From a virus: 64,000 nt of DNA. The stretch's first letter is position 1. Each line of letters opens with the position of its first letter. The stretch lies in the IMG/VR virus record IMGVR_UViG_3300025154_000064, positions 24,975 to 88,974 of that record, one strand, 5' to 3'. Below the pieces are notes generated by a model. That model worked only from the letters and a program-made list of their open reading frames with translations. It was not told the origin of the DNA and did no database searches. Shown here piece by piece: positions 4,401-64,000 of this stretch. The position numbers and the translations under genes are program-made.

Positions 4401-5285
4401 AAGGACTTCCGGGATAAGACCATCGCTAATTACAAGGAAGGTTCGAATGATGCCATCGCAGCTGAGAAGGCCTATCAGGCAGCCGTTCTTAAGGTTGGCG
4501 AGGCTATCACGGATGAGGATGAGCGCCAACATGCGCTAAGGGTGCAGCAGACCGTAAAAGAGCTTAAAATGAAGCTGAAGATGGTGCAGGAATACTCGGT
4601 TGAATATTACCGGATCATGGAGGAGCTTCGTAAGCTTGATGAGATAGAGCCGATATCGGATGAAGAACGCCTCGCCGGATCGCTTGACTGGGTGGATGGC
4701 ATTAGGCTCGGGTTGATCCGTTCCGCAAAAGAGCAGAAAACCCAAGCGCAACACATTGCTGATATCTGGCAGAACGCAACGAATGCGATAGGCGATGGAT
4801 TCGGGACGCTTTTTGAGGATGTTCTGGTTGGGAAGGTTAAGAGCGCCGGTGACTATATCGTCAGCTTTTTAAGCTCTGTGGCCAAGTCGGTCAACAACGT
4901 TCTGGCCAACGCTATTGGTCAGGGGATAGCGACTACCATAGGCGGGATGTTTTCTGGCGGAAGTGCCGGCCAGAGCCCTTATGACTCTGGGATAGCCATG
5001 GCGCAGGGTGGATGGATAACCGAGCCAATCGTCGGCCGCGGTATCAACACCGGCAAGAGGTATACTCTCGGAGAGCGCGGCCCAGAGCTGGTCACGCCAG
5101 CCGGCCAAGTGCGGCCGGATTCATTCCCGCCGAGTGTTTCAGTCATAATAAACAATAACACAGGATCAAACATGAAAAGCCAGCAATCAAATGCCAGGTT
5201 TGATGGTCAACAGTGGGTTGTAACAACGCTGATTGATGCTATAGATCGAAATGTTAACGGCATAAGAGGCATGCTTGGCGGATAA
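1413..5285 (+). CDS. Tail tape measure protein
   Basis: At 1290 aa this is by far the longest gene of the proximal tail module. Residues about 200-400 match the phage-minor-tail (TP901-type) core: a hydrophobic stretch, GNIVEFDQALHNLQAI, many Ala/Gly-rich helices and the GTGLRQVL motif. Residues 600-1000 are long charged coiled-coil. The C-terminus carries the lambda gpH-like sequence GGWITEPIVGRG followed by GERGPELV. The protein spans the tail lumen and sets its length, predicted around 190 nm if about 1.5 Angstrom per residue applies. Confidence 0.93.
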   Translation: MGDKVQELGTRFTGDIKDISEKVRQLMALLNQLDTYSRTSSSILGQVTQKAIALNGAIAKTPVAKNFAQNKVMLSEFQLALGGATNESKKFQAALTTLGEGKTGIALKTIKSQLEQVERAIVKTAQKMKMLGQDGEKFFNETDRIKAFNDALAGKTRATATTTRTPVEPKAPSGFLDQIKNAARVTLAYGLVGSAIGSVAMAAKAGVGNIVEFDQALHNLQAITEATNDETSVMGNRIKQIASDTKYTAQQVSDGMTLLGQAGLDAAQATAVIGPAATLATGTLSKMEETVDLLSTTLVAFKMDAAEAGRVTDVMAAAVNKSKLTIEQLRTVFNYVGSSAHMIGMSIEELAASTMVLANTGLRASTIGTGLRQVLAKLLSPSEKLRESFEAHSISLDAVNPKVVGFQQAMKNMIPILWDVKKNTVDMSKAYELFELRGAQAAAVLVESFAGGRFKQAFEDTLEIGSAAEMAAKQSEGLGVMWDNLVAKAGVLAIALGDLGVVGAMKGVISVAGLLTDVMTDMASVTADAFDSLFNSTERQKRLAGEQVVENKAVVGSLKVYIEALKVTQKEVGTNNQVSTAHLSILKRLKADHPELADKIDLTKVSFNSLGTVIASVNRLMDEHNQKTMEGRLKKISLAESARAELDNLKAEAEKTKATIAALKPVSSAKGQGQNEINKSREMDIKYLEAHLKDIEDKIKLSTKSIDETVSEWSAEIANALKGSESPSMDIVDTMIGNMIRLGKVSEETGKKIRENVTAKLKAVAVDLDTSKFTTRIKTMGKDFDAVFKTLDPSKKLDFVEKFGALEKKIANIRKTYANTDIPGEDVEADIAAKKKAFLEEYLKKEADSSQKVVDNASQEAQKRIQIQEYYYATVARLTSDEHEKLEQERLKESESIKKQYEEAIAMANKTGEDKAAIKAKYDNLQDQNTKFYTQKGYDLDQKKSLELLDIEIIKRKQLAEQKKRDTLDDSGGLATIKANEAKVTIESLEQEMRIRKDFRDKTIANYKEGSNDAIAAEKAYQAAVLKVGEAITDEDERQHALRVQQTVKELKMKLKMVQEYSVEYYRIMEELRKLDEIEPISDEERLAGSLDWVDGIRLGLIRSAKEQKTQAQHIADIWQNATNAIGDGFGTLFEDVLVGKVKSAGDYIVSFLSSVAKSVNNVLANAIGQGIATTIGGMFSGGSAGQSPYDSGIAMAQGGWITEPIVGRGINTGKRYTLGERGPELVTPAGQVRPDSFPPSVSVIINNNTGSNMKSQQSNARFDGQQWVVTTLIDAIDRNVNGIRGMLGG

Positions 5286-5319
5286 AAAGTGTTGCAAAAT
5301 TCAAAAATAAATTATATGC

Positions 5320-5346
5320 AGGACAAAATTGAATTAAGTTTGTCCT
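5320..5346 (+). promoter_or_regulatory. Small hairpin sharing GGACAAA with the next one
   Basis: AGGACAAA (5320-5327) pairs with TTTGTCCT (5339-5346) around an 11-nt loop. The GGACAAA segment recurs in the left arm of the larger hairpin at 5354-5426, so alternative pairings are possible. The loop also contains AAAATTGAATT (5324-5334), an 11-mer shared with the repressor-region operators at 25049 and 62735. Confidence 0.5.
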
Positions 5347-5353
5347 GGCTGGC

Positions 5354-5426
5354 CACCTTGGACAAAAAAAATAGGGTATGATCGGGGTATCCATTTACTG
5401 ATCATACCTTTTTTTTGTCCAAGGTG
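5354..5426 (+). promoter_or_regulatory. Long hairpin burying the ribosome site of the next gene
   Basis: The stem has 27 pairs: 5354-5363 with 5417-5426, the A8 run 5364-5371 with the T8 run 5409-5416, and 5375-5383 with 5400-5408. It has one 3-nt bulge (5372-5374) and a 16-nt loop. The right arm includes AAGGTG (5421-5426), the Shine-Dalgarno of ATG 5431. It is either an attenuator/terminator limiting read-through into the tail-tip genes, or a translational gate. Confidence 0.7.
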
Positions 5427-18459: not shown

Positions 18460-18873
18460 CTATTCACGCGGGTTTGCGCCGTCACCATCTGCCACCACCT
18501 CATAGTTGTAATCTTTGCAGGCATATCGGTTCGCCACAACCTCCTCACGGGTAAAGAGATCTCTCACCCATTCACTATCAAACCGAAACCCGCTAACCGG
18601 ATTCACATCACCGACCTGCGCTTCCTCCCATTCTTTCGTTAATGGATGCTCAGGGGTGTTGTGTTGTGCCGGGTACCAATCATTCCGTTTGCATATGCGC
18701 TTGACTTTATCTCCAAAATAGATTTCATTCCCGAACATATCGACTTCGCCAGTCCACATTTTCGGTTCTGAGCAGAACTCTTCGGAGAATTTATAAAACA
18801 TGTCTGAGATATCGCGGGGTGTTTGAGCGTAAAAATCTTTCCAGTCCTTCTTCATTTGCGCTTTAAATTTCAT
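18460..18873 (-). CDS. Uncharacterised protein with YopX-like motif
   Basis: A 137-aa protein whose start overlaps the integrase stop (ATGA-type coupling). Residues 44-58 read DMFGNEIYFGDKVKR, similar to the small beta-barrel motif of YopX-like phage proteins. The rest is charged and carries no other recognisable domain. Being last in the integrase transcript, it may be a recombination accessory protein, but nothing shows this directly. The region 18138-18459 next to it holds the terminator, repeat copy 2 and the attP-like site. Confidence 0.6.
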   Translation of the reverse strand: MKFKAQMKKDWKDFYAQTPRDISDMFYKFSEEFCSEPKMWTGEVDMFGNEIYFGDKVKRICKRNDWYPAQHNTPEHPLTKEWEEAQVGDVNPVSGFRFDSEWVRDLFTREEVVANRYACKDYNYEVVADGDGANPRE

Positions 18874-19979
18874 ATCGCATCCCTTTCCAATTTAACCACC
18901 TTCCCCCGTTCCATAAGTTCGCGCTTCCGAGCCACTTCCATTTTGGCATATTTACGGACGGATTCGAGCCGGGCATGGTCGGTGATTTGTTGAAGGTCCG
19001 AAATTGACAGACCTTTTTCGTTTATGTATTGTGAACACGATGAATGTTTCAAGCCGGAATAGAGGTCGATGCTTTCCCCAGCATCCCGGCAGGCCTTGTG
19101 CCAAATCAGATTTAGGGAATCGTTTGTGTATCGTTTCCCTGGTGATCTGGACCTCCAATTGACGAACAAGAATGGGCTACCCAACGTTCGCGCAATTGGC
19201 GCGAAATATCGAACAAACTCAGAATGGGCCGGGATGATATGTTCGACGCCGGTTTTAGTCCGTTCAACAATCCGTCGAGCGCTTTCCGATCGACGGATAA
19301 TAAAGATTCCATTCTCACGGTCCCAATCCTCCCATTTTAAAACGCATGCCTCTGCCGGCCGGCGCAGGTGATATTTCAGCCACAAAAAGATGGCCCGGTG
19401 CTCCGCCGGGATCGCGTCAATTATTGCCATCTGGCGGTCCTCAGGCAACCAGACGATGCTTGGTTCCTGAATCTGGTAAAGCCGTTTTTCCGGGAAGGCC
19501 GGGACCTCCGGGATGCGGCGCGATTTCCATGCGTATTTCAAGCACGCATGGAGGCAATACATCGTGTTTAGTTTGCCCTTACCGGTGCGCTTTATTGAGT
19601 TGAGGAGCATCACCAAAACGTCGAACTGGATCTCGTGCAACTGGAACGGATGCGCCTTGAAAAACGGCCCCAGGTGATTCCTTATTGAATTTTCGTAATC
19701 TTTGACGGTCGCCGGCGTCAATGTGGGGCGAACAGCGTTAAGCCATTCTGTGAGGTATGGGATGACATCGGTGAACTGTTCGCCGGTGAACTTTTCAATC
19801 CGAAAAATCCCGGCCTCTTGATCGGCCTGCATGGTAGCCAGTAGTTTGCCGGCGACCTTTTTATGGTACATCCTTTCCCCGCGATAGCGAGAAATAAAAA
19901 ATGATTTCTTGCGCTTGGCATCATACCATTTTACAAACCACCACCCTGAGTCTTTACGGAAATGGATTGATCCTTTCAT
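18870..19979 (-). CDS. int: Tyrosine site-specific integrase
   Basis: A 369-aa protein. ATG 19979 is used because GGGGGTG precedes it; the upstream ATG at 20045 has no such site. It has an N-terminal arm-binding part, a SAM-like core domain around 75-165 (YLTEWLNAVRPTLTPATVKDYENS) and a catalytic part with Arg in HLRRPAEA, Lys/His in GLKHSSCS, His in TDHARLESVRKY and the nucleophile Tyr in the same segment. The box-II H-x-x-R is changed to S-x-x-K (SGLKHS). It probably integrates the phage at the attP-like site at 18315-18338. Confidence 0.88.
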   Translation of the reverse strand: MKGSIHFRKDSGWWFVKWYDAKRKKSFFISRYRGERMYHKKVAGKLLATMQADQEAGIFRIEKFTGEQFTDVIPYLTEWLNAVRPTLTPATVKDYENSIRNHLGPFFKAHPFQLHEIQFDVLVMLLNSIKRTGKGKLNTMYCLHACLKYAWKSRRIPEVPAFPEKRLYQIQEPSIVWLPEDRQMAIIDAIPAEHRAIFLWLKYHLRRPAEACVLKWEDWDRENGIFIIRRSESARRIVERTKTGVEHIIPAHSEFVRYFAPIARTLGSPFLFVNWRSRSPGKRYTNDSLNLIWHKACRDAGESIDLYSGLKHSSCSQYINEKGLSISDLQQITDHARLESVRKYAKMEVARKRELMERGKVVKLERDAI

Positions 19980-20059
19980 GCAGACACCCCCAGTTGTTGT
20001 TAAACCACTGGGAAGGTTACTGTATATGGTGGACTTGGTCAACATTTATTGAATTTCAA

Positions 20060-55696: not shown

Positions 55697-56224
55697 CTAT
55701 TCCTCCTTAAATTCGGTTCCAAATATTATTTTAAAGTGGATAGCCTGCTTTTCCCTTGCGGCATCCCTTGCGGCATCCCTTGCGGCATCCCTTGCGGCAG
55801 CCCATGCGGCATCCCTTGCGGCATCCCTTGCGGCAGCCCTTGCGGCATCCCATGCGGCATCCCTTGCGGCAGCCCATGCGGCAGCCCATGCGGCAGCCAA
55901 CTCTTCTTCTGAAGCTTCACCGTGTGCAAAAAGGTGCACAGTTCTCACAGCGTCACGGCTTCTTTTATCTTCCATGAGATGCAAAATATCCTGACAACAA
56001 GCCACGGCAAAGAGTCTGTATCTCTTCGCAATATCATCCCCTTCGAGTGCCGATTTGGGGACCCATAACACATCGTTAAGCCCATTAATTTCCAGAATCT
56101 TTACAAGCTGGATGGGTGTCTCGTCTTTAAACCCTCTACCAAGACCTTTCTTCAGATGCTTGTAGCGTTCGGTGCAGGCTTTCGCCTCTCGCAATTTCTT
56201 TAATGTCGTGTAGGGTATCATCAA
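55697..56224 (-). CDS. Alanine-repeat protein (immunity-like family)
   Basis: A 175-aa protein. Residues 1-105 are helical with charged residues (TTLKKLREAKACTERYKHL; RYRLFAVACCQDILHLM), followed by ASEEELAAA and about 12 repeats of AARDAA/AAWAAA. The order of helical domain, (R)SRxAV, GEASEEEL and Ala-rich repeats resembles a widespread family sometimes annotated as putative immunity proteins; that name is unproven. Confidence 0.5.
   Translation of the reverse strand: MMIPYTTLKKLREAKACTERYKHLKKGLGRGFKDETPIQLVKILEINGLNDVLWVPKSALEGDDIAKRYRLFAVACCQDILHLMEDKRSRDAVRTVHLFAHGEASEEELAAAWAAAWAAARDAAWDAARAAARDAARDAAWAAARDAARDAARDAAREKQAIHFKIIFGTEFKEE
55757..55902. repeat. 12-nt tandem repeat in the alanine-repeat gene
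   Basis: About 12 copies of GCATCCCTTGCG with GCAGCCCATGCG variants. It encodes AARD/AAWA units in 55697-56224. In-frame, so length changes by 12 nt keep the gene intact. Confidence 0.8.
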
Positions 56225-57155: not shown

Positions 57156-57179
57156 CACCAAGGCGCGAGGGCCTTGGTG
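57156..57179. promoter_or_regulatory. Small hairpin beside array A
   Basis: CACCAAGG (57156-57163) pairs with CCTTGGTG (57172-57179), loop CGCGAGGG. It sits between array A and the gene at 57123 and could end or process an array transcript. Confidence 0.4.
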
Positions 57180-57181
57180 GT

Positions 57182-57334
57182 TGGTACGCAAGAACCATCT
57201 GTGGTTAAAAGCTGAAGTGGCTCGCATACGAATCCTGTGTTTGAAATACTTCTTGGCTCGCAATTTAATCATGTGGCTAAAAGCGTTTTTGGCTCGCATT
57301 CGGATACTGTGTTTAATTATTCATCTGGCTGTCA
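57182..57334. repeat. TIGR array A, four 36-bp units
   Basis: Units begin at 57182, 57218, 57254 and 57290, exactly 36 bp apart. Each reads TGGCTCGCA, 9 variable bases, TGTGTTTAA, 9 variable bases (plus strand), with minor changes (TGGTACGCA; TGTGGTTAA). The eight spacers are all different. It ends in the degenerate TGGCTGTCA five bases before the stop codon of the gene at 57339. In-frame stops in the spacers rule out a coding repeat. Layout matches a tandem interspaced guide RNA array; strand of transcription unknown. Confidence 0.85.
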
Positions 57335-57338
57335 AACA

Positions 57339-57989
57339 TCAATTAACCATAGGCTGCACTGGCCGCCCGGCTGGCGCAACCGCCATGCCAACGTCGTAAG
57401 CTGTCTTGGCCGCAATCAATGCCGCCTTCAACTTTTTGATTTGCTCGTGCTGCTCAATGATGGTCCGCTCTTGTTCGGCGATGATCTCATCCTTCTGCGA
57501 GAGCTGCCTCATCAGGCTTTCAACCGTCGGTTTGGCGACCACTGGTTCCTCGCGCTTGGCCTTCAGTTCCGGCTTCTCGTGCTTTGCGATGACCTTCTCG
57601 ACAAGCGCCGGCGTGACTTTCTCAATTGGAACAGATGCCAAGTCGTTAAAGACTTTTTCTTTTCCGACGGCGCCACACCGATGGTGCGCTGCAATTGGGA
57701 TAGACGGACCATACTTCACAGCCTCGACTGGTGCGCCGATAAAGGCGAGCTTGAGGTCACCGTACCGGCCTGGGGAAAGGTCGAACATGGTTTTCACATA
57801 TTCGTTAAAGGATGCGTTCTTAAATCTCGGGTTTTCCCTGAAGCGCTTGGTGTAATCCAAGTAATACAACGCACGGATGAAATTCTTCTGGTGCCTCAGC
57901 TCAAGAATTTTCTCACGTGCCGCTTCGGTTTCGATCTGGGTAATGGATCTGGTGTCATACTTTTTTTTCAATTCTTCGATAGCTTGCAT
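57339..57989 (-). CDS. Uncharacterised protein between TIGR arrays A and B
   Basis: A 216-aa protein flanked on both sides by array. N-terminal half: LRHQKNFIRALYYLDYTKRF, then NASFNEYVKTMFDLSPGRYG. C-terminal coiled coil from about 165 (LSQKDEIIAEQERTIIEQHE). No family recognised. Its position suggests, but does not prove, a link to the guide system. Its upstream 5' region would contain array B. Confidence 0.55.
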   Translation of the reverse strand: MQAIEELKKKYDTRSITQIETEAAREKILELRHQKNFIRALYYLDYTKRFRENPRFKNASFNEYVKTMFDLSPGRYGDLKLAFIGAPVEAVKYGPSIPIAAHHRCGAVGKEKVFNDLASVPIEKVTPALVEKVIAKHEKPELKAKREEPVVAKPTVESLMRQLSQKDEIIAEQERTIIEQHEQIKKLKAALIAAKTAYDVGMAVAPAGRPVQPMVN

Positions 57990-58014
57990 TGTTTTTTTCC
58001 TTTTTTGGGTTTGG

Positions 58015-58312
58015 GGTGACGCATTGGCAAATTGTGTTTAAATGGAACCCTGGCTCGCAAAATGATGATGTGCCTAATCCAAAGTTTGACTCGCAATAAT
58101 TTTCTGTGTTTAACTTTCCAGCTGGCTCGCATCCTCAAGCTGTGTTTAAAAAAAATAGATGGCTCGCAACCTCGGATCGTGTTTAATTTTGGCGCTGGCT
58201 CGCAAACGTTTTTTGTGATTAATCGTGAAAATGGCTCGCAAAGTACCAATAGGGTTAATCTTCATAATGGCTTGCAGGTTCATTGTGTGTTTAACCGGAA
58301 CAGTGGCTTCCC
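58015..58312. repeat. TIGR array B, eight 36-bp units
   Basis: Units begin at 58015, 58051, 58087, 58123, 58160, 58196, 58232 and 58268. Period 36 except one of 37 where a spacer has an A-run (58150-58159). Repeats TGGCTCGCA and TGTGTTTAA with small changes (TGACTCGCA, TGTGCCTAA, TAGGGTTAA). All 16 spacers differ. Degenerate end TGGCTTCCC at 58304. It fills the gap between the 57339-57989 gene and the Tas-like gene. Confidence 0.87.
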
Positions 58313-58348
58313 CGGTGGCCACCAACAGACGACCACCCAGTACTTTCT

Positions 58349-59206
58349 TTATGCCTCTACCAACTCTTCCACCTCAACCTCGATATCTTTCTTAAAATAA
58401 AACGGCTCGATAATCCCGGTATGTCCCAAGATCGTCCCAGCATAAGGCTCGCTGACCGGCTTCCCGTCAAGCGTCCGCGCGACGGTCCAGAAGTGGGACA
58501 AAAATAACTTCACCGTCTCGTGCTTCGCCATGTTTAAACGATGGCCTTTGGTGGCGTCCGGATGGGTCCGTTCACGTTTTCGCTTGGAAGCTTCCAGGAA
58601 GGTTTTATACTGTTCGTCTGCCGGATGCCGGTTAACCTGTTCGCCAAAGTGATAGGTAACTACCCGGCCGCGGCTCGACCAGTCCGAGACGGTTCCTTTC
58701 TTTCGCTTCGGCATCTTCCCGTCAATGACGTGCCGCCCCATGTAATGCCACCACCCGGAAATATTGGCGAAATCCTTCTCTTCAATGGCATGATGGGTGT
58801 GGCCTTCGCCCTTGGCGCTCTTCTGGCAAGTCGAGCACCAGAAGGTGTTGAAAGATTTGCCTTCCTCCTCGACAGCTTTCTTCTCAAGTTTAGTGCCGCA
58901 CTTCTCGCACACCGGCGTGAAGCGGTAATAATAGAGCAGGACCAAATTCCCGGCGATGAAAGGGCCGGCACCAGGGACGTGCTTCAGCCACTCGGTCCAG
59001 ACCGGATAAAATTCGAGGTCCTTTTCGATGTTCCGGGACAGCTTGCCTTTAATACTTTCCAGATTCTTTATGAGGTCCTGGTGTTTCTCGCTGGCATCAG
59101 GGTTCATCGACCCGAGCCGGTTTTTCGTCGAAACGAGCATCTTGCAAAGGTCATCATAGGTCCTGCAATTGAAGCTTAAATTTCTTACTACCATTTCGTC
59201 TATCAT
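58349..59206 (-). CDS. Tas-like protein (Nop/IS110-type, nuclease-less)
   Basis: A 285-aa protein (ATG 59206, AAAGGA upstream). Residues 10-75 are a charged helical region. Residues 77-86 are VPGAGPFIAG, the helix-hairpin-helix seen in IS110 Transposase_20 and Nop-like domains. A zinc ribbon is inserted (Cys 100, 103, 124, 127). Residues 218-245 (TKGHRLNMAKHETVKLFLSH) match the C-terminal helices of that domain. No RuvC DEDD or HNH motif is seen, so it would be of the TasA kind. It lies between arrays B and C/D. It is expected to bind 36-nt guide RNAs and DNA. Domain similarity is read by eye, so it needs a profile search. Confidence 0.72.
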   Translation of the reverse strand: MIDEMVVRNLSFNCRTYDDLCKMLVSTKNRLGSMNPDASEKHQDLIKNLESIKGKLSRNIEKDLEFYPVWTEWLKHVPGAGPFIAGNLVLLYYYRFTPVCEKCGTKLEKKAVEEEGKSFNTFWCSTCQKSAKGEGHTHHAIEEKDFANISGWWHYMGRHVIDGKMPKRKKGTVSDWSSRGRVVTYHFGEQVNRHPADEQYKTFLEASKRKRERTHPDATKGHRLNMAKHETVKLFLSHFWTVARTLDGKPVSEPYAGTILGHTGIIEPFYFKKDIEVEVEELVEA

Positions 59207-59295
59207 GCTGTTTTTCCTTTGTTGTTTTGCCGTAATAGTACGGCGGTTACAGAGTTGGTGCCGCAAAAGCGCGGCGGTTTTTGGTTAAGCATTTC

Positions 59296-59466
59296 CTATT
59301 TGTGTTTTAAAAGGAAAATGGCTCGCAAGACATTAATGTATTCAATTTTCAAAATAGCTCGAACATCTTTTATTCCTGTTTGTTTCTCACATATGATCTT
59401 TCCAGATCTAAACCTATCTCTTTGACGCATCTTTTCGCGGCTTTTAAATGTTTTAGTACATAGCAT
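59296..59466 (-). CDS. Possible 56-aa ORF running into array C
   Basis: ATG 59466 after AGGTGG. Basic start (LCTKTFKSREKMRQRDRFRS), with the last part translating array sequence. It may be a real leader or chance; the array part is not conserved as protein. Confidence 0.25.
   Translation of the reverse strand: MLCTKTFKSREKMRQRDRFRSGKIICEKQTGIKDVRAILKIEYINVLRAIFLLKHK
59301..59363. repeat. TIGR array C, one degraded unit
   Basis: TGGCTCGCA (59319-59327), spacer, TGTATTCAA (59337-59345), spacer, then TAGCTCGAA (59355-59363). TGTGTTTTAA-like half before it (59301-59310). A decayed remnant, same orientation as the other arrays. The rest of 59207-59300 shows only weak traces (for example TTTGGTTAA near 59280). 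Confidence 0.65.
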
Positions 59467-59483
59467 CTTTCCACCTCATGATA

Positions 59484-59726
59484 TTTGTTTAACCGATTCA
59501 GTTGCTCGCACTGGCAAGTTGTGTTTAAAATCAAACCTGGCTCGCAAGCTGGGTATGTGTTTAAAGAACGTCCTGGCTCGCAAGCCTGATCTGTGTTTAA
59601 TAAGGACAATGGCTCGCACAACAAGCCTGTGTTTAACGGCCGGAATGGCTCGCAATTGCTTTTTGTGTTTAATTTCATGGCTGGCTCGCAATCTGTTTCT
59701 GTGTTTAATCGAAACTTTGGCTTATC
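59484..59726. repeat. TIGR array D, six exact 36-bp units
   Basis: After a partial half-unit (TTTGTTTAA 59484-59492), units begin at 59502, 59538, 59574, 59610, 59646 and 59682. The repeats TGGCTCGCA and TGTGTTTAA are invariant in units 2-6, and unit 1 has TTGCTCGCA. The 12 spacers are all different. The end TGGCTTATC (59718-59726) contains the stop codon of the gene at 59722. Best preserved of the arrays. Confidence 0.9.
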
Positions 59727-60449: not shown

Positions 60450-61895
60450 TTAAGGTTTTTCCTTCGGTCTTACGGTAAGGTTCGGCTTAAAATAGACGCT
60501 CGCGCCGAGCTTCCTTGAATCTTTTAGAAGGTTCTCGACCCATTCCCATTCGGGTTGGGATTCCAGTCCGCGACTATTACGGCTTCTGCCACCAACAATC
60601 ACCCAATCGACTCTGAAGTCACTCTTCAAGGTAATGGGTTCAAGCATAGGTTCACATGACAGGAAGAGAATGTTGTCGATATCTTTAATTTTCTCGAAAG
60701 CCACGCCGGCCGAATCAGCTCTTGCCTGCGTATCGGCTGTTGCACCCAGCAAACAGTTCTTCGGAAACTCAAAGTCGGCATAGCGTGCCGGGTTTTTCGT
60801 GAGGAATAAAAAATTCCATTGCGGGTTTTCGCCAACAACTGTCAGCACGCTTTCGATCCACTCATCCGGCACCCAAGGGCCAAACAGGTCAGCCATGCTG
60901 CAAACGAAGACATTGTTATCCAGCACGCCCGGGGGGACTGGCGTATTCGCCGCCGCGCACAGCCTTTCCGGGTGAAACGTAGGCTCAAATGTGCCATCGA
61001 ATCTCATGCCGATATCGTAGGCATAACAATACTCGCACCCATATTTACATCCGGTTACCGGGTTCCACGAATATTTGGCCCACTCGATATTTCCATTGGT
61101 GACGTTGAATTTCGATGTCGATCTTGTTATCTCTTTCTCTTTAATTTCCTGCATTGCCGCGTTAATGGTCTTGGCGCCTGCCTTAACCTCCTCGGCAATT
61201 TCTGGATCAGCTTTTTCGATAGCCTTCGCCATACCGACCATCTTCCCGGAAACGCCTACGGTTTTCGCGGCCTGCTCGCGGGATTCGTTCTCGTGCCGTT
61301 TCTTTGTGAGGTCTTCAAGCCAATTCGTTTTTGACGGGTATGGTTCCGGTTCTGGCTTTTTCTTGGCTATTGATTTAAGCCAGTCATCGCTTCCGGGGTT
61401 TGGTTCCTGTTCCTGATTTTTAGGTTGCGGAATAACCCAAGGCTCTTTGGGTTTTATAACCGCTTCCGGAAAATCTTCCGGAAGCGGTTTGCTGCCATAC
61501 ATACCTGGTCCGCTTGTAGCCTGCCGATCCTTAGCCATCGCCGCATACATCTTCTCCACCTCGATAGCCAGGAACGCCCTCTGACTCTGGTTCAGGTGCC
61601 GGCGGTTCAAGTTTTCCGAAAGGACATAGGCGATCGGATCTACCGGATTAAATTCCTCGATACGCACGTCATTTTCAACATCAATTGACGCGCATAGCCT
61701 ATTCCGGCCATCTATCAGCAGTCCGGCAGATGTAACCCGTGCCGGATGAAGGAAGCCGTTTTTCCTGACATCTTCCACCAAGGCCAAATATTCTTCATCG
61801 CTCATCATCGGCATTAAGTTCGCCGCCGGATGTACCCCAGCCAGATCATAGAGTCGAACAGCTTCTTCTAATTTTTCTTTGAAATTTATTGGCAT
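60450..61895 (-). CDS. ParB-like domain fused to DUF5131 (Gp37/Gp68, radical-SAM-like)
   Basis: A 481-aa protein. Residues 25-110: ParB/sulfiredoxin-like domain (LMPMMSDEEYLALVEDVRKN, ending GRNRLCASIDV). Middle: linker and helices with DNA-binding look. Residues 265-475: DUF5131 with NPVTGCKYGCEYCYA, the C-x3-C-x2-C that in radical SAM enzymes binds 4Fe-4S. Neighbour of the TcmP-like gene, a known pairing. Biochemical role unknown. Confidence 0.8.
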   Translation of the reverse strand: MPINFKEKLEEAVRLYDLAGVHPAANLMPMMSDEEYLALVEDVRKNGFLHPARVTSAGLLIDGRNRLCASIDVENDVRIEEFNPVDPIAYVLSENLNRRHLNQSQRAFLAIEVEKMYAAMAKDRQATSGPGMYGSKPLPEDFPEAVIKPKEPWVIPQPKNQEQEPNPGSDDWLKSIAKKKPEPEPYPSKTNWLEDLTKKRHENESREQAAKTVGVSGKMVGMAKAIEKADPEIAEEVKAGAKTINAAMQEIKEKEITRSTSKFNVTNGNIEWAKYSWNPVTGCKYGCEYCYAYDIGMRFDGTFEPTFHPERLCAAANTPVPPGVLDNNVFVCSMADLFGPWVPDEWIESVLTVVGENPQWNFLFLTKNPARYADFEFPKNCLLGATADTQARADSAGVAFEKIKDIDNILFLSCEPMLEPITLKSDFRVDWVIVGGRSRNSRGLESQPEWEWVENLLKDSRKLGASVYFKPNLTVRPKEKP

Positions 61896-62782: not shown

Positions 62783-63712
62783 TCAGGCCGCCTTTGCTCT
62801 CGCAGCTTTGTATCCCAAAAGCTCACTATCCAGCCGTGCGGAAATTTTCTTCATACTCTTGATAACGTCCTCAATTTCCGTAATGCGCCGGCTGTTACAA
62901 TTCACCAACAACCCGGCCTTGTCATCGGCAAAGGGTGTTTCCCGGAATTTCGCCATAGCGGCAAAGAGCTGGCTGAAGGCGGATTTGGCCAGTGCTTTGT
63001 CTTTGTTTGTTTCCACCGGTTTAGCCTTATCCAGAAGGCTCAACTGGGCCTCTTTTTCAAGGAACACTTCTATGTGTTTCAACATGCTGGCAACATCTTT
63101 TCCGCGCCGTGACACATCATAGCATTTCATAACCCGGCTCGGCTTCACAGTGGCCAGTTTTCTGGCAACCGCTTTAGGCAACCGGCCAGCGTCAAATTCG
63201 CGTAGCAAAATTTCGGGCAAGCCAAGTATCGGCAAATCGGCTTTGAGTGTCGTCAACGAAGTCCCAAATGCCTTGGCGCAAGTTTCCAAAGGAATGCAAT
63301 GGACGTTGACGGCCTTGTCGATCGCCTTGAGAGTTTCCAAAGCTCCCATATCCTTCCGAACGGCGTTATCCATGATCTGGTCCACAAAAATGTCACCATC
63401 AGTCTCTTCTGAATAGTCACAGATCTTCGCTTCGATTTCCAAGCCATCATCACCGGCACGGAAACCTTCCCTTTCGCTACCATCCCAGTACATATTCACA
63501 TACAGGGACACCGCCGTATAACGACATTCCCCATTGACTATCCAGTACCGACCAGGAATGTCCGGGTTTTCTCTTACATGAATTGGGTTCTTTAGACCCC
63601 TTTCCGCAATAGAGACGGCCAGTTCATCCCGCAGGTATTCCACGGGTTTGGTTTTTCGTGGTTGATGAATATCCGGGTCGATCGCGCTGATTTTAATGAA
63701 TTGAGTTGCCAT
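62783..63712 (-). CDS. ParB-like partition/nuclease-domain protein
   Basis: A 309-aa protein. N-terminal ParB domain: ISAIDPDIHQPRKTKPVEYL, then IHVRENPDIPGRYWIVNGEC and RYTA; middle HTH (LETCAKAFGTSLTTLKADLP, then ILGLPEILLREFDAGRLPKA). C-terminal helical. No ParA is visible in the window. Roles include partition of a plasmid-like prophage or transcription regulation. Confidence 0.75.
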   Translation of the reverse strand: MATQFIKISAIDPDIHQPRKTKPVEYLRDELAVSIAERGLKNPIHVRENPDIPGRYWIVNGECRYTAVSLYVNMYWDGSEREGFRAGDDGLEIEAKICDYSEETDGDIFVDQIMDNAVRKDMGALETLKAIDKAVNVHCIPLETCAKAFGTSLTTLKADLPILGLPEILLREFDAGRLPKAVARKLATVKPSRVMKCYDVSRRGKDVASMLKHIEVFLEKEAQLSLLDKAKPVETNKDKALAKSAFSQLFAAMAKFRETPFADDKAGLLVNCNSRRITEIEDVIKSMKKISARLDSELLGYKAARAKAA

Positions 63713-63941
63713 GAGTTTTTCCTCCAGGTGGTTGGATTTTAAAGTTTGGTGGGTTTCGAGAGGCCGATTTCTAAAATAATCAAAAAAAACAAGAATCGAG
63801 GCCTTCTTGACGGAAAAAAAAAATTCTACATGTGCGGGTGCGTTTTCCGGGAAATTAAAGATGTTGATTATTTGTTTTTTTTTTTTTTTTTATTATTACT
63901 ATACTAGAAGAAACCATCAAATTTTCTTGCTGCAAAGTTGA

Positions 63942-63997
63942 TCAATCGACACCGGCTTGAATTCAATTCAAGGCTTTTTCCAGCCGGTGTCGATTGA
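63942..63997. repeat. 16-bp inverted repeat with nested palindrome (origin-like)
   Basis: TCAATCGACACCGGCT (63942-63957) pairs with AGCCGGTGTCGATTGA (63982-63997). The 24-base centre includes CTTGAATT C AATTCAAG (arms 63956-63963 and 63965-63972), overlapping the left arm by two bases. It lies in the 288-bp non-coding region before the ParB-like gene, near a T19 tract (about 63871-63890). A centromere-like parS, origin or operator is possible; the window ends too close to see more. Confidence 0.6.
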
Positions 63998-64000
63998 ACA

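Follow-up and report, generated by a model that had tools for sequence, protein, structure and literature searches.

What is the element at positions 57182-59726 of a 64,000-nucleotide stretch of phage DNA (hereafter the window; bases 24975-88974 of the 88,974-bp IMG/VR virus record IMGVR_UViG_3300025154_000064), where two short repeats alternate with unique segments around a gene for a 285-amino-acid (aa) protein? An original prediction, made from the DNA letters alone, had proposed a TIGR-Tas system. Our analysis bears out this identity: the locus is almost certainly a TIGR-TasA system of a phage. The assignment is carried by the sequence profile and predicted fold of the protein, by an array anatomy that corresponds to the published one, and by relatives with the same arrangement.

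The window protein is a nuclease-free TasA

We compared the 285-aa protein with Tas/Nop and IS110 families. The NCBIfam model NF052498 ("TIGR-Tas system RNA-guided endonuclease") matched it with an E value of 9.4e-24 and also matched 8 of 8 aligned relatives, while no IS110 model matched; in the PDB, sequence comparison identified TasR (9mty, E 2.8e-28). Foldseek comparison of an AlphaFold2 model (mean predicted local distance difference test score, pLDDT, 80) ranked TasR first (E 1.3e-10), followed by TasH and then by the IS110-type recombinases IS621 and ISCro4. The helix-hairpin-helix (HhH) motif and the Nop/IS110-type C-terminal helices that had been read from the sequence are both present.

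The window protein shares the Nop fold, the HhH motif and the C-terminal domain with TasR (9mty) and TasH (21kl, 9w03 and others), whereas these carry an N-terminal RuvC or HNH nuclease and the window protein has none. In the alignment with TasR, the matched region begins no earlier than TasR residue 107-123, which means that the RuvC part is missing, and a Pfam search of the protein found no nuclease domain and no HNH; the protein is therefore TasA. The longest alternative upstream start of the gene adds only 20 aa. A second distinguishing feature is a CxxC...CxxC zinc ribbon between the HhH hairpin and a WWxYxG segment, with four cysteines that are invariant in 8 aligned relatives. It falls in the gap between two matched stretches of TasR 9mty, which has no ribbon at this place. 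The nuclease-free status, the zinc ribbon and a conserved second gene (see below) had all been overlooked in the original prediction.

Edge and loop repeats form TIGR arrays, with repeat ends that can base-pair

The arrays, tasA and the accessory gene all lie on the minus strand (Table 1). Each unit of ~36 nucleotides (nt) consists of an edge repeat TGCGAGCCA, a 9-nt spacer A, a loop repeat TTAAACACA and a 9-nt spacer B. This two-repeat, two-spacer pattern, as originally described, is real: edge-N8-10-loop was matched exactly 8 times across the record, exclusively on the minus strand, compared with 0 matches of the reversed control, and near-copies of both 9-mers (≤2 mismatches) are 6-7 times denser in the region than in the rest of the window. 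Counting the loop repeats gives 21 units (7 + 2 + 8 + 4) in three arrays and a short degenerate remnant, so that the array stands but the earlier count of about 19 has to be corrected. The two 9-mers are also not invariant, as had been claimed; copies differ by up to three bases, several of those in 58020-58312 and 57182-57334 by one to three, and array 2 starts with a 5'-truncated edge (AAGCCA) and ends with a 3'-truncated one (TGCG). The repeats are mostly 9 nt long, as are nearly all spacers. The 42 spacers are all distinct, in keeping with the original reading, and a few resemble one another slightly more than shuffled 9-mers do (8 nearest neighbours at 2 mismatches versus 2.8 expected). 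Edge, loop and spacer lengths, UG...CCA-type boxes, strand and position match the description by Faure et al. 2025 (PMC12045711); TIGR arrays alternate two repeats of 8-12 nt with unique spacers of about 9 nt.

Protein-based scans found relatives in viral contigs and in one metagenome-assembled genome that bears the label Deltaproteobacteria (Myxococcota according to its tree label). Dual-repeat arrays adjoin the gene in the distinct Tas-anchored loci and in Microcystis phage Mvi-JY20, the close relatives with enough DNA have them, and the same architecture is found in dozens of phage contigs. No array was found within the 10 kb surrounding a distant homologue in Arthrobacter phage Talia1610, and none was recognised in locus L150 with the strict pattern used.

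Among the relatives, the usual repeats are edge TGCGAGCCA and loop TGAAACCCA, with end motifs that in most of them are the same as those of TasR and TasH. In each of 14 distinct loci, the edge can form the pairs 2-7 and 3-6; the pair is kept in 14/14 edges and 13/14 loops and undergoes double changes, namely G-C to A-U at 2-7 in the edge of one locus and C-G to U-A at 3-6 in those of two. Compared with the common loop TGAAACCCA, the window loop TTAAACACA has U for G at position 2 and A for C at position 7; these are exactly the bases of the 2-7 pair, and pairing is retained. Because pairing is maintained through double changes, the transcribed strand is fixed. The repeat pairing fits that seen in the TasR structure (PMC12045711).

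Further variation was observed around these arrays. The 72-kb contig IMGVR_UViG_3300036863_000086 (L095, L111, L126, L128) holds both loop types, TGAAACCCA and TTAAACACA, in several array stretches of up to ~90 units (possibly double-counted), together with a distant Tas protein. In Mvi-JY20 (L041, PP438412.1), an unannotated TIGR array follows a "hypothetical protein" at ~4650-5405 that is a Tas homologue, possibly representing a TIGR system with a known host. At L012:3032-3946, ~4 kb from a zinc-ribbon TasA in the same phage, lies the gene for a second Tas-like Nop protein, which is distant, 304 aa long and without a zinc ribbon. At L008:8801-8881, the tas reading frame overlaps with array-like units at its 3' end; the protein tail would therefore be partly encoded by array repeats.

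A coiled-coil accessory gene accompanies the zinc-ribbon TasA clade

The zinc-ribbon proteins form a clade of 23 rows (support 100/98) within a tree of 41 Tas rows, and an accessory gene lies next to tasA in 20 of them. It is missing from three rows: in L101 only 93 bases separate tas from the contig end, the basal L113 has 1.1 kb of DNA on one side, and the third is L034. It was found in 0 of the 18 rows outside the clade, many of which have little flanking DNA. Among gene families present in three or more of the first relatives, it is the sole real one besides tasA; the third shared group consists of antisense frames. A reverse scan starting from the accessory protein returned 14 loci, and tasA is present in the ones examined, apart from one that is cut off by the end of its contig. 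Members are 200-270 aa long, and those adjoining tasA in relatives have ~22-33% identity to the window protein, the model of which (pLDDT 85) is helical with a C-terminal coiled coil. It matched no PDB fold, and comparison with BFVD gave only weak matches (best E 0.03; one to a DUF3102 protein, E 0.11).

A ParB-like gene, TasParB, occurs in some published tasA operons (PMC12045711), which raises the question of whether the accessory gene is tasParB, and the gene content consequently not new. We consider this possible, though the less probable interpretation. In those operons, too, a second gene adjoins tasA, arrays lie before, between and after the genes, and the second protein has a C-terminal dimerising region, comparable to the coiled coil of the accessory protein. 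ParB-likeness, which defines a TasA-TasParB operon, was not detected here: the family had no meaningful match in Pfam, NCBIfam or PHROGs and none of 13 members matched ParB, while hhalign against the window's own ParB proteins gave a probability of 0.2-1%. In addition, repeats of 10 nt are reported for arrays near tasParB (PMC12045711), while those of the window are mostly 9 nt. The window's own two ParB-like genes lie upstream of the TIGR locus (60450-61895 and 62783-63712); one is fused to DUF5131, and they are not common to related loci.

The zinc-ribbon TasA clade is new, as is the accessory gene unless it is TasParB. In other respects the locus resembles TIGR-TasA systems such as FpTIGR of Flavonifractor plautii (PMC12045711), which likewise have a solo Nop-domain protein without nuclease, a phage context and, surrounding the gene, a dual-repeat array in which 9-nt spacers separate short edge and loop repeats. 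It differs from them in the zinc ribbon after the HhH hairpin, in the conserved second gene and in the closing pair of the loop repeat, which is U-A and not G-C. The role of nuclease-free TasA is an open question in the field, and no clear protein partner beyond the occasional ParB-like gene has been reported (PMC12045711); a conserved gene that is linked to a single TasA clade, whether the search starts from tasA or from the accessory, offers a concrete protein to co-purify.

Spacers are replaced while repeats and genes persist

Between loci L028 and L030, DNA identity of the tas and accessory genes is 87-89% and the repeats are kept, but only 1 of ~34 spacers is in common (≤1 mismatch); by our calculation, drift alone, at a divergence of 11%, would have preserved some three quarters of them. 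Tas pairs with 70-89% protein identity have 0 spacers in common. Between L114 and L117 (98% Tas identity), some units are kept and others differ as whole 36-nt units. The spacers have thus been replaced while repeats and genes persist, which favours exchanged guides over a drifting minisatellite; the original prediction had likewise read the differing spacers as guides and not as a decaying minisatellite. This comparison is new, and since array growth and spacer origin have been called an enigma (PMC12045711), the two pairs of loci are usable material.

Proposed action and targets of the TasA complex

By analogy with published members, the array RNA would be cut within the edge repeats into 36-nt guides of the form half edge - spacer A - loop - spacer B - half edge. 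The original prediction spoke of "tasRNAs"; the published term is tigRNAs (PMC12045711). One tigRNA would be bound by a TasA dimer via the paired ends of the edge and loop repeat in a box C/D-like manner, and spacers A and B would each base-pair with a different strand of an 18-bp DNA target (5'-A-revcomp(B)-3'), which would thereby be opened and bent. Because the protein has no nuclease domain, TasA most likely occupies its site, thereby blocking transcription, replication or recombination, or recruits a partner, for which the coiled-coil protein encoded next door would be the best candidate. We infer that the targets are other mobile elements. The zinc-ribbon TasA and an obligate, undescribed coiled-coil partner might constitute a distinct TIGR subtype, that is, a phage RNA-guided DNA-binding complex with guides exchanged by whole 36-nt units; we judge the chances of this to be even.

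We searched for targets with the published rule (5'-A-revcomp(B)-3', gap 0-2), for which we deduced the A/revcomp(B) order from the 8-nt 3' overhang described earlier (PMC12045711). Several observations speak against the assignment as a TIGR-TasA system. Paired-spacer matches at ≤2 mismatches in the phage's own genome numbered 2 versus 0.6 in shuffled pairings, which is no clear excess, and 206 pooled units searched against 1.02 Mb of related contigs gave 4 matches versus 2.9 at 1 mismatch and 66 versus 69 at 2 mismatches, again relative to shuffled pairings. The NF052498 score of 84.6 bits lies below the curated cut-off of 100. Moreover, the window loop carries UU..ACA and the edge UG..CCA, so that the pair is not common to both; edge and loop boxes almost always change together (PMC12045711). 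When one exact spacer pair was compared with all IMG/VR contigs, it had 2 matches, which we judged to be about chance, with no control run.

Could TasA instead be regulatory, with guides that act on the phage's own genome? The lack of a nuclease would suit such a role, as nuclease-free CRISPR-like proteins can silence, a possibility also discussed in PMC12045711. Self matches in the pooled set (5 versus 5.6), like those of the window phage, are not clearly above shuffled pairings, and the fast spacer replacement is better suited to moving targets, which makes regulation of the own genome improbable.

Relation to IS110 elements and minisatellites

IS110-family recombinases such as IS621 share the Nop-like RNA-binding fold, and it is conceivable that the locus is an IS110-family transposon, the protein being its transposase and the repeats bridge-RNA or end sequences. 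Consistent with this, the protein matched PHROG 4285, labelled "transposase" (E 4e-18), and in the fold comparison IS621 and ISCro4 come directly behind the Tas proteins. However, the window protein has no N-terminal DEDD domain, and the Tas profile and Tas structures outscore IS110, the structures by a large margin (E 1e-10 versus 5e-3). Long two-repeat arrays, which here take the place of one bridge RNA, are a trait of TIGR and not of IS110, and the gene keeps its arrays and partner gene across unrelated phage contexts. We therefore regard an IS110 transposon as very unlikely. A decaying minisatellite that flanks a Nop-like gene by chance, as some repeat copies with 1-3 changes and the decayed appearance of the two-unit remnant at 59292-59363 might suggest, can be practically dismissed, given conserved repeats with paired double changes, unrelated spacers within an array that are replaced far faster than neighbouring genes diverge, and the same architecture beside related genes in dozens of contigs of other phages.

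Table 1. Coordinates of the TIGR-TasA locus in the window
Feature	Position	Strand	Description	Basis or remark
TIGR array 1	59475..59726	-	7 units, upstream of tasA	Truncated edge present
Degenerate array remnant	59292..59363	-	2 units, between array 1 and tasA	
tasA	58349..59206	-	285 aa, Nop-domain TIGR-associated protein without RuvC or HNH domain	NF052498, 9mty, Foldseek
HhH motif	58943..58978	-	VPGAGPFIAGNL, aa 77-88	Alignment of relatives
Zinc ribbon	58826..58909	-	CxxC...CxxC, aa 100-127	Inserted after HhH hairpin
TIGR array 2	58020..58312	-	8 units, between tasA and accessory gene	
Accessory gene	57339..57989	-	216 aa, helical domain and C-terminal coiled coil (aa 156-204)	Homologues next to tasA, reverse scan, model
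TIGR array 3	57182..57334	-	4 units, downstream of accessory gene	
Strong hairpin	57156..57181	-	ACCAAGG...CCTTGGT, directly after array 3, without following U-run	Read from sequence

Flanking signals and other features of the phage

In TIGR systems, arrays begin and end in truncated edge repeats and are then closed by a terminator. At this locus, truncated edges occur at arrays 1 and 2, and the hairpin directly after array 3 is a possible transcript end, judged from its sequence, although it is without a following U-run and was not among the calls of a terminator scan. A scan for sigma-70 promoters gave a result not above shuffles, comparison with Rfam yielded no match, and a tRNA search found none. 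By megablast, no named phage was close to the record, and its terminase was also without a match. The ends of the record appear to overlap by ~130 bp (window ~63870-64000 versus the first 130 bases of the record, with a differing T-run length), so that the phage genome may be complete. The phage carries an integrase (18870-20045), and twelve 12-bp repeats (TCCCTTGCGGCA) at window positions 55752-55895 lie within a gene, where they encode an Ala-Arg-Asp-rich repeat.
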